Shown here: positions 2,184 to 5,912 of the stretch, one piece after another
Layout: each line of letters opens with the position of its first letter
Numbering within the stretch: the first letter of the stretch is position 1
Assembly: GCA_018648325.1 (NCBI GenBank)
Contig: JABGRK010000017.1
Span: forward strand, 186,001 to 250,000
Length of the DNA stretch: 64,000 nucleotides
Direction of reading: 5' to 3'
Source: Chloroflexota bacterium
Lineage (GTDB): Bacteria; Chloroflexota; Dehalococcoidia; JABGRK01
Translations under genes and position numbers: made by a program
Notes under the pieces: model-generated
The model's database searches: none
What the model saw: only the letters and a program-made list of their open reading frames with translations
What the model was told of the DNA's origin: nothing

Positions 2184-4187
2184 CTATTGATTAGTTGATT
2201 CGGCGACTACTTCGGCAATATCCATGACTTTGAGCGTTCCTTCGACACCTTTGGCCTTGGCAGCGTCCTCAAACATAATCATGCATAGGGGGCAGGCGAC
2301 AGCAAGTATGTCTGCCCCCGATTTTATTGCGTCGTCGATGCGCAGATGAGAAATCTTGACCTCTTCTTCCATCCAGCAGCGTCCTCCACCGCCACCACAG
2401 CAGAAGCTACTGCGTTTCGTGCGATGTCGGTCTATTTCGGTATACTCATCGCTGGCAACGGATTTGAGTATCTGCCTGGGCTCTTCATAGATATCGCTGT
2501 AGCGTCCTAAATAGCAGGGATCATGGTAGGTGATCGATTTTCCTTTTGCTGTAGCTGATAGTTTGCCATCGGCAATAAGATCGGCAATAAGCTCGGTATG
2601 ATGAATTACCTCAAACTGGCCTTCAAACTGCGGATACTCATATTTGAGCGCATTAAGGCAGTGAGGGCAGGAGGTAACGATCTTTTTAACGTCGTATTTT
2701 TTGAGTGTTTCTATGTTGCGCATAGCCTGCATCTGGAAAAGGTATTCGTTGCCGGACCTGCGTGCCACATCGCCGCAGCAGCTTTCTTCTTCACCCAGAA
2801 TGGCGAAGTTCACACCGGCGTTTTTCATCAGGTTGGCTGTGTCAATGGCTATGTTTCGGCATCGGTCATCCAGTGCGTTGGTGCATCCCACCCAGAACAG
2901 TACGTCGAAGTCACCATCGGACGCCTGTTTGATGTCCAGACCTTCTGTCCAGTCGGTACGCGTGGCAAGTGTGCCCCGCCAGGGATGGCCTCTTTGCTCC
3001 ACGCTCCTCAGAGCGCCCATGATTGTTTCCGGCATCTGGCCCTGTTCCAGCACCAGGTTGCGTCTGAATTCCATTATCTTGGGCATGTGTTCATTGGCAA
3101 CGGGGCATACTTCCATGCACGAGCGGCAGGTGGTGCACGACCATATGGTTTCTTGCCTAATTACGTTATCGATAAGTTCTGCAGAGTCTTCTTCGCCTTT
3201 AATGATTCCCGGCGCTACTTTCCTTAAGTGTTTGTTTAAATCCTGTATAAGCTCTTTAGGATTGAGCGGTTTTTCGCTGGCAAACGCCGGACAGGCATCC
3301 TGACAGCGTCCGCATGAGATACAGGCGAAGCCATCAATCAATTGCTTCATGGTAAAATCAGTGATTTTATTAACGCCGAAGGTTTCTGTGTTTTCTATGT
3401 CGATCGGTTTCAGTGCGCCTTTTGGTTCCCGCGATCGCAATAGCAGGTTTATTGGAGCCATTAACATATGCAGGTGGCTGGACCAGCCGAACTGTACGAC
3501 GATAAAGAGCACAATAAGCCAGTGTGCCCAGAAGAAATAAGGATAAGCTGCATCGGCTGCAGCCGGGTTGTTAAAGATGTTGCTTAGCAGCTGTGCTACG
3601 GGCGGTGTTGCTCCTCCAAGCCCTGCAGGTGCATGTGATGCGGCAATGGCGGCAGCCTCTTTAAACAGGTGAATAAGTGGTATTGTGCCGATTAGTACCA
3701 GAGCTATGAGCGGGTCCAATATTGGCTCGCCTTTAAGCCTTGCTGGTTTGATAACAAATCTGCGGATAATTCCCCAGATAATTCCGGTAATGATCAGAAC
3801 GGCAAAGATGTTCATGAACCAGGAGTAGACCAGGAAAAACGTGTTATTCTGCATTGCATTGTAAATACCGAAACCGGCGCCGATGACAATAAACAGAAAA
3901 TAGTAAAGGACGAACAAAAAGAAGCCCCAGACAATAAGCACATGTCCTATTGCTGCCCTGTCTTTGCGGGATACGTTTTTAAATCCGCACCACTGTCCGA
4001 CAACATGGAAGAGCGCAGAGGCTATTCTTTTTACGATGTCAGTTAGTTTTGCATCTCTTTTGCCGACTGACAGATATTGTATGAGCTGTCGCAGCCTATA
4101 GGAAGCAACCGCAACTGCTACTGCAAAAAGCCCCCAAAAAAGGATATACCCTATTGCACTTAGTCCGCCTGCGTCTATCGGATTCAT
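2184..4187 (-). CDS. membrane-bound Fe-S oxidoreductase, NarI-like membrane domain fused to HdrD-like CCG domains (EtfD/ETF:menaquinone oxidoreductase-like)
   Basis: Multiple N-terminal TM helices, 4Fe-4S motifs CISCGRCQDACP and CTTCRSCMEVCP, CCG-type motifs SCCGD/CCGGGGGRCW. Confidence 0.8.
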   Translation of the reverse strand: MNPIDAGGLSAIGYILFWGLFAVAVAVASYRLRQLIQYLSVGKRDAKLTDIVKRIASALFHVVGQWCGFKNVSRKDRAAIGHVLIVWGFFLFVLYYFLFIVIGAGFGIYNAMQNNTFFLVYSWFMNIFAVLIITGIIWGIIRRFVIKPARLKGEPILDPLIALVLIGTIPLIHLFKEAAAIAASHAPAGLGGATPPVAQLLSNIFNNPAAADAAYPYFFWAHWLIVLFIVVQFGWSSHLHMLMAPINLLLRSREPKGALKPIDIENTETFGVNKITDFTMKQLIDGFACISCGRCQDACPAFASEKPLNPKELIQDLNKHLRKVAPGIIKGEEDSAELIDNVIRQETIWSCTTCRSCMEVCPVANEHMPKIMEFRRNLVLEQGQMPETIMGALRSVEQRGHPWRGTLATRTDWTEGLDIKQASDGDFDVLFWVGCTNALDDRCRNIAIDTANLMKNAGVNFAILGEEESCCGDVARRSGNEYLFQMQAMRNIETLKKYDVKKIVTSCPHCLNALKYEYPQFEGQFEVIHHTELIADLIADGKLSATAKGKSITYHDPCYLGRYSDIYEEPRQILKSVASDEYTEIDRHRTKRSSFCCGGGGGRCWMEEEVKISHLRIDDAIKSGADILAVACPLCMIMFEDAAKAKGVEGTLKVMDIAEVVAESTNQ

Positions 4188-4384
4188 ATATATCTCTCCT
4201 GCTTGAGTTTAGCATAAAGCCATAATTATTGACAACGTGTTTATACTTGACATCCATGCAAGTGAATATTGGTAAAAGGTTGGTTTTTCAAAAAGTAGCG
4301 CTTCTATTTGTCCAATAATCAGGGCGGAACTTGCATTTTCCTGCTCGATGGTGTACATTCTCGGAGTAAAAAGAGAATAGAATT

Positions 4385-4485
4385 GATGAAAAGGGCAAAC
4401 CTCGGGAAATCGGGGGGCGCAAAGCTGCAGGTCTAAGGCCTTTAATCGTGAAAAGTGAAGGTTAGGATGGCTGAGTTACCGCACT
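4385..4485 (+). ncRNA. cyclic di-GMP-I (GEMM) riboswitch aptamer
   Basis: AAGGGCAAACCTCGGGAAATCGGGGGGCGCAAAGCTGCAGGTCTAAGG...GGTTAGGATGGCTGAGTTACC: GGGCAAACC, GAAA tetraloop closed by CCUCGG/UCGGGG, GCGCAAAGC, GGTCTAA and GGTTAGG...GTTACC blocks. Confidence 0.9.
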
Positions 4486-4490
4486 AGCAG

Positions 4491-4519
4491 CTCTCCTGTC
4501 AATCTTGGCGGAGAGTTTT
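4491..4519 (+). terminator. riboswitch expression-platform terminator
   Basis: CTCTCC-t-GTCA-atct-TGGC-GGAGAG followed by TTTT immediately after the aptamer. Confidence 0.7.
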
Positions 4520-4552
4520 GTGGTTATAGGCATTAAAGAGTAAGGGAGTGGC

Positions 4553-4927
4553 ATGGATAGCAGAATTAACGTTCTGGTTGTAGACGATGAGCCCGGTATG
4601 CTTGAAACCATGGCCGATATACTCGCGGCCACCGGTTACCGTTCTTCTGTAGTTGAGCAGGCCAAAATGGCGCTTGATCTGGTAGGTAAAATCCATTTTG
4701 ATATTGTGCTTATGGATATAGTTATGCCTGAGATGAATGGGGTTGATGCTTATAAAAAAATCAGAAGCGCTAGCCCTGATACCAAGATAATTATGATGAC
4801 CGGTTATGGTTCTGATCACCCGCTGGTAAAAAAAGCACTTGGTTGTGGTGTTGAGTATCTATTGCATAAGCCTTTTGATGTGGATACCCTCATTAGCAGC
4901 ATCAACCAGGCTTGTGGTGACTCATGA
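4553..4927 (+). CDS. response regulator receiver (CheY-like) protein
   Basis: INVLVVDDEPGMLETMADILAATGY...IVLMDIVMPEMNGVDAY...LLHKPFD. Confidence 0.9.
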   Translation: MDSRINVLVVDDEPGMLETMADILAATGYRSSVVEQAKMALDLVGKIHFDIVLMDIVMPEMNGVDAYKKIRSASPDTKIIMMTGYGSDHPLVKKALGCGVEYLLHKPFDVDTLISSINQACGDS

Positions 4928-4964: not shown

Positions 4965-5912
4965 ATGAGTAAAGAAGTAAAAGTTCTAATTATTGATGGC
5001 GATAGCGGTTTTTGCCAGACACTGGCGGATATCCTGAATGAAAAAGGCCTTCAGACAGATTGTGCTCATAATGGAGCTGAAGCGCTGGCTAAAATAGAGC
5101 AGGGCTCCTTTACCGTAGTACTAATAGATGTCAATCTTCCCGATGCTGATGGAATTGAGCTTTTCAAAAATATTAAGCAGATGTCGCCTGATATTGAGGG
5201 GATAATAGTTACAGGGTATGCCTCTATAGAGTCAGCAGTGGCAGCGGTGCGGTACGGCACTATCAATTACGTAATGAAACCGCTTGTGGTTGAGGATGTT
5301 CTTACCAGTATTGGTGATGCAGTTAACCGGCAGCAGCTGATTTCTGATGAGAAAAAGAGGCTTTCTGCGGAAATAGCGGAGAAAGAGCGTTTTCAGGCGC
5401 TGGCTACGGTTGATGGACTTACGGGGCTTTATAACCGGCGCTACTTTCATGAATTTCTTACCAGAGAACTTGATCGTGCCGACAGATATTCGCACGATTT
5501 AAGCATATTTATGGTGGATATAGATGATTTTAAGTCGTATCAGGATCCACATGGGCACCAGGAGGGTGATTCTGCTCTGCAATATATCTCGCAGATACTC
5601 GGCAAAACTGTGCGTGGTGATGATATAGTGGCGCGCTATGGAGGCGAGGAGTTTGCTGCTATTTTGCCGGAGGTATCCAAAGGCGATGGTGTAGTTATTG
5701 CTGACAGGATGAGGGTGGCGGTGGAGAATGCCAAAGGCTCACTTAAGGGCAAGATCACTATTAGTGTTGGTGTGGCTTCTTATCCCACCGACGCCAAGAA
5801 CAAAAAACAGTTGATTAAAAGGGCTGATGATGCGCTTTACGCTGCCAAGCGTGCCGGTAAAAACAAAACGGTGCTGTGGGATAAATCAATTACAAAAAAC
5901 AAAACGGACTGA
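4965..5912 (+). CDS. response regulator with GGDEF diguanylate cyclase domain
   Basis: REC domain VLIIDGDSG...VVLIDVNLPDADG; GGDEF domain with intact GGEEF signature (VARYGGEEFAAILPE). Confidence 0.92.
   Translation: MSKEVKVLIIDGDSGFCQTLADILNEKGLQTDCAHNGAEALAKIEQGSFTVVLIDVNLPDADGIELFKNIKQMSPDIEGIIVTGYASIESAVAAVRYGTINYVMKPLVVEDVLTSIGDAVNRQQLISDEKKRLSAEIAEKERFQALATVDGLTGLYNRRYFHEFLTRELDRADRYSHDLSIFMVDIDDFKSYQDPHGHQEGDSALQYISQILGKTVRGDDIVARYGGEEFAAILPEVSKGDGVVIADRMRVAVENAKGSLKGKITISVGVASYPTDAKNKKQLIKRADDALYAAKRAGKNKTVLWDKSITKNKTD

Follow-up and report, generated by a model that had tools for sequence, protein, structure and literature searches.

The window, the 64 kb stretch of DNA that was analysed, carries a riboswitch leader and a terminator in front of a response-regulator gene and a diguanylate cyclase gene. 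The features of the locus are as follows.

4331-4359, forward strand, candidate sigma70-type promoter, TTGCAT-N17-TACATT with TG before the -10 element, proposed from sequence conservation
4384-4483, forward strand, c-di-GMP-I (GEMM-I) riboswitch aptamer, full-length match to RF01051, 10th to 12th bases GGG
4465-4496, forward strand, candidate antiterminator, in which GGATGGCTG (4465-4473, the 3' side of P3) pairs with CAGCTCTCC (4488-4496, the 5' arm of the terminator)
4490-4519, forward strand, intrinsic terminator, hairpin 4490-4515 and TTTT 4516-4519
4542-4548, forward strand, likely ribosome-binding site AAGGGAG of the REC gene, read directly from the sequence, 4 nt before the ATG at 4553
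4553-4927, forward strand, stand-alone response-regulator receiver (REC) protein, 124 aa (PF00072, E 9.9e-28)
4965-5912, forward strand, REC-GGDEF diguanylate cyclase, 315 aa (PF00072 and PF00990, E 3.8e-48)

A preliminary description had placed the riboswitch, the terminator and the two genes within 4385-4927. The elements themselves are present but the range is too short, since it ends at the REC stop codon and omits the cyclase at 4965-5912.

An Rfam cmscan of the 64 kb returned exactly one match above the gathering threshold, RF01051 at 4384-4483(+), which scores 72 bits against a cutoff of 35 (E 3.6e-12) and covers the model over its full length (1-87/87). This covariance search bears out the c-di-GMP-I assignment, originally made from GEMM sequence blocks that are all found in the leader. 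The riboswitch was judged by its covariance score rather than by the minimum free energy (MFE) of the whole leader, whose comparison with shuffled sequences was uninformative (z -0.18 and -0.66). The window RNA is a new c-di-GMP-I riboswitch; the class itself is already known.

The ligand-discriminating position, equivalent to G20, falls within bases 10-12 of the aptamer (GGG); in GGGCAAACC, placed by alignment and sequence context, it is G. Rare GEMM-I relatives sense cAMP-GMP (PMC7266159), and the variants that sense cGAMP have A at this position, the G20A change accompanying cGAMP binding (PMC6274999). That the window RNA is a sensor of 3',3'-cGAMP instead of c-di-GMP is very unlikely, given the G in the aptamer and the Asp of the GHxxGD motif, which is kept in the guanine pocket of the window cyclase. 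Cyclases of the hybrid-promiscuous type, which make cGAMP, carry Ser at that Asp position. Because the discriminating base is G and the pocket residue Asp rather than Ser, c-di-GMP is favoured as the ligand and the cGAMP reading was rejected; the aptamer is predicted to bind c-di-GMP selectively. Both the ligand class (c-di-GMP-I) and the target gene are well supported. In two other genomes of the class, G003 and G028 (L009 1501-1523, L019 1501-1523), the discriminating position is A, and at a second locus of G003 (L027 1501-1523) it is C. These riboswitches may sense cGAMP or another dinucleotide.

In G001, a genome of the same genus, the counterpart of the candidate promoter is TTGCGT-N17-TAAATT and lies 53 nt from the aptamer, a distance identical to that in the window. 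The promoter at 4331-4359 was not reported by a generic promoter scan at its threshold. The CTCTCC...GGAGAG hairpin with TTTT, noted earlier from the sequence, is a real fold: the sequence GCTCTCC-T-GTCA-ATCT-TGGC-GGAGAG (4490-4515) has an energy of -14.0 kcal/mol (RNAfold) and is kept in G001, where the arm GGAGAG and the greater part of the loop are unchanged and six T replace TTTT. In G042, which belongs to another family, another strong terminator, different from that of the window, occupies the same place. The window has a short T run (TTTT, followed by GTGG), and RNA polymerase may therefore terminate there in part only.

Pfam confirms a REC protein followed by a REC-GGDEF protein with an intact GGEEF, as had been described. 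In the cyclase this motif spans residues 226-230 (about 5640-5654) and is preceded by an RxxD site (R217-D220, about 5613-5624) and IVARY, placing RxxD five residues before GGEEF. The closest solved structures are the REC-GGDEF enzymes 6zxm and WspR (3i5a). The window enzyme resembles these and PleD in domain order, GGEEF, RxxD and the phosphoacceptor Asp of its REC domain, and it is a diguanylate cyclase predicted to synthesise c-di-GMP when phosphorylated. It differs from them in having Gln for Asn in the FKxxND motif of the guanine pocket (as do its counterparts in G001 and G042), in the acidic residues of REC and in a neighbourhood without a kinase gene. The REC domain reads IIDGDSG (DGD) in the window but IIDDDGG (DDD) in G001; having lost one acidic residue, it may bind metal and be phosphorylated less well. 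The stand-alone REC has 46% identity to the first REC domain in a REC-REC protein of G042 and is absent from the G001 locus.

The arrangement recurs in relatives. In G001 (locus L018) the neighbours are the same, an iron-sulfur protein upstream and aspartokinase downstream, and the leader, with a riboswitch of 71 bits, stands directly 5' of the orthologous cyclase (69% identity), without the stand-alone REC. Promoter spacing, aptamer and terminator are conserved between the two loci. In G042 an 87-bit riboswitch with a strong terminator stands at the head of a chain of PAS kinase, REC-REC, REC-GGDEF and HD-GYP genes, the kinase gene being frameshifted in the assembly. A kinase/REC/REC-GGDEF series is found in G053, G027 and G016; no recognised riboswitch lies ahead of it in G016, and the contigs of G053 and G027 end upstream of it. 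The orthologous cyclases of these four genomes are 45-52% identical to that of the window. On a small contig of G053, a c-di-GMP-II-GAG variant riboswitch (L049 4568-4650) accompanies a c-di-GMP-I riboswitch. The window operon has the orthologous cyclase and REC in common with the four operons, and the riboswitch and terminator in front with that of G042, but has no kinase or HD-GYP gene of its own, these having been lost or never present. Because riboswitch and terminator head the kinase/REC-REC/REC-GGDEF/HD-GYP operon in G042, the window operon is best understood as a form of that module that has no kinase.

The genome to which the window belongs (2.0 Mb, 19 contigs, 93.5% complete) has a single GGDEF match, the window cyclase, and a single HD-GYP protein, which has HDIAK and HHEWYNGSGYP motifs and is encoded on the same contig as the operon. 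No EAL, PilZ or MshEN domain was found in the 93.5% of the genome represented. The status of sole synthase could fail, given this completeness and the presence of a second GGDEF in G001. Four c-di-GMP-I riboswitches are present, each followed by a terminator-like hairpin. Besides the window operon, the genes that follow them encode a small protein (contig C12) that matches no Pfam family and has a hydrophobic segment near its N terminus, a PAS histidine kinase together with a REC (C10) and, on C2, a multi-PAS histidine kinase whose sequence is divided between two frames. The C2 gene (L054 5158-10729) encodes about 11 PAS domains, GAF and a histidine kinase, and its two overlapping frames reflect a frameshift or an assembly error. 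Two of the four aptamers (L052 about 4014-4098; L053 5524-5607, minus strand) fit the GGC variant RF03167 better than RF01051; they are near copies with similar long terminators, and the genes downstream of them are unrelated. A search for c-di-GMP-II riboswitches gave no hit in the genome, and none in its control either.

The remark that no histidine kinase lies nearby holds. Neither the window nor the 20 kb that precede it contain a match to a kinase HMM, and contig C7, on which the operon occupies 190-192 kb, has no HisKA match between about 62 kb and 288 kb, the nearest being ~96 kb from the operon. There are 30 HisKA matches in the genome, and a distant kinase may provide the phosphorylation input to the operon. 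The kinases behind the C10 and C2 riboswitches were considered as relocated cognate partners and rejected; their similarity to the kinases of G042, G053, G027 and G016 is distant (mostly 24-30%) and neither can be named as the partner.

The missing kinase, together with the absence of the stand-alone REC from G001, the DGD of the cyclase REC, the short T run and a P1 pairing that on inspection of the sequences is weaker in the window than in G001 and G042, would fit a decaying relic, that is, c-di-GMP signalling in the course of being lost from a reduced genome, with a switch that now works poorly. The aptamer nevertheless scores 72 bits, the catalytic GGEEF and the RxxD are intact, promoter-to-aptamer spacing is exactly conserved and the genome has three further riboswitches with terminators. 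We consider decay very unlikely.

The sign of regulation can be approached through the topology of the leader. In the OFF switch Cd1 aptamer and terminator can coexist, whereas in the pilM ON switch they are mutually exclusive (PMC9262584). In the window the two do not overlap, lie ~10 nt apart and, with the aptamer enforced, coexist in all three leaders (window, G001 and G042). Because aptamer and terminator are separate and able to coexist, an OFF switch is favoured, and therefore negative feedback. The analogy is with Cd1 of Clostridioides difficile, a transcriptional OFF switch whose terminator is likewise separate from its aptamer; Cd1 controls flagellar genes, whereas the window riboswitch precedes a diguanylate cyclase.

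How the ligand-free RNA might escape termination was considered from secondary-structure energies, which leave out ligand and kinetics. In transcripts stopping just before closure of the terminator, the ligand-free MFE structure pairs 4465-4473 with 4488-4496 and breaks the aptamer, a refolding favoured by about 6-8 kcal/mol in these intermediates. Among 200 shuffled terminators 55 gave a pairing equal to or stronger than that of the window; the same control gave 2/200 in G001 and 30/200 in G042. G001 does not keep the exact pairs of the window. We do not claim a conserved antiterminator, since such a pairing is plausible in the window but significant in G001 only, and the two do not have their pairs in common; the modelled window antiterminator is offered as a weak suggestion.

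If c-di-GMP instead prevented termination, the riboswitch would be an ON switch that raises the synthase, with positive feedback and perhaps bistable commitment as the outcome. Both signs exist within the class, the pilM type being an example of ON (PMC9262584), the window antiterminator is no stronger than its shuffle control, and the free ensemble of the full-length transcript still favours partial disruption of the aptamer by 2-4 kcal/mol. Against this, a strand of the aptamer belongs to the terminator in the described ON switch, which makes the two mutually exclusive (PMC9262584), whereas the ~10 nt separation in the window and the coexistence in all three leaders have no such exclusion. 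An ON switch is thus unlikely.

We propose, as the probable reading, that the leader acts as a transcriptional OFF switch and so exerts negative feedback on the sole synthase, in addition to RxxD product inhibition. Transcription would start ~20-25 nt 5' of the aptamer. At high c-di-GMP the nascent RNA would bind the ligand, the aptamer would remain folded and the separate downstream terminator would form, halting RNA polymerase ahead of the REC and REC-GGDEF genes. At low c-di-GMP the 3' side of the aptamer would be free to pair with the terminator sequence, allowing read-through and production of the cyclase. Expression of the one recognisable c-di-GMP synthase in the genome would in this way be under negative feedback, and the I-site (RxxD) would be expected to act on the enzyme alongside it. 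Product feedback had been suggested in the preliminary description and now has comparative support: (i) the leader is syntenic in G001; (ii) it heads the operon in G042; (iii) the GGDEF is the only one found in the genome. Since riboswitch and terminator head the operon that encodes the one c-di-GMP synthase found, c-di-GMP probably restrains its own synthesis.

The pattern extends to the wider class. Among 51 riboswitches above the cutoff in 60 genomes, whose contigs are short, at least 12, an approximate figure, have a GGDEF or HD-GYP gene downstream on the same strand within about 4.5 kb (G000, G001, G042 twice, G008, G017, G020, G026, G028, G036, G051 and G056). Any other orientation within 5 kb accounts for three among the matches listed (G042:C39:3704, G053:C41 and G056:C64), an orientation bias with an approximate binomial probability of 1.2e-5 when four equal quadrants are assumed for the matches listed. 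Open reading frame chains and Pfam support those of the 12 cases that were examined. Many genes associated with c-di-GMP riboswitches function in production or degradation of the ligand or in signalling (PMC7266159). Turnover genes are therefore a known kind of target, and it is their frequency in this class that is notable. In G017 and G032 a riboswitch precedes a gene of the sigma-70 family that has regions 2, 3 and 4; in G017 the next gene encodes a membrane HD-GYP protein, and G051 is similar (loci L022 683-1471, L015 568-1332 and L158 around 530-1430). These cases suggest that c-di-GMP controls an alternative sigma factor.

A broader view, which we hold tentatively and think somewhat less probable than its negation, is that the organism has an almost RNA-only c-di-GMP economy. 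It would comprise one synthase, one HD-GYP phosphodiesterase, no PilZ or MshEN receptor, and four c-di-GMP-I riboswitches serving as principal or sole receptors, one closing the loop on the synthase and two placed over PAS kinases, with feedback on turnover genes being common in the wider class.

According to a review, diguanylate cyclases are a rare target class for c-di-GMP riboswitches, which are unusual among riboswitches in seldom regulating the metabolism of the ligand they sense (PMC6366702). A literature search that covered papers available without subscription gave no matching case of a c-di-GMP riboswitch autoregulating a sole cyclase. The closed wiring described here, a riboswitch over an apparently single synthase, is unusual, and the interest of the finding lies in this loop together with the class-wide pattern. 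The occurrence of turnover genes behind at least 12 of the 51 riboswitches suggests that the statement on rare targets reflects the phyla studied so far. In many model species the cyclases are many and redundant, which makes feedback difficult to study in isolation. With a one-synthase circuit closed by a riboswitch, it would be possible to test directly whether RNA feedback controls the set point of a second messenger, and whether riboswitches as main receptors suffice for c-di-GMP signalling.
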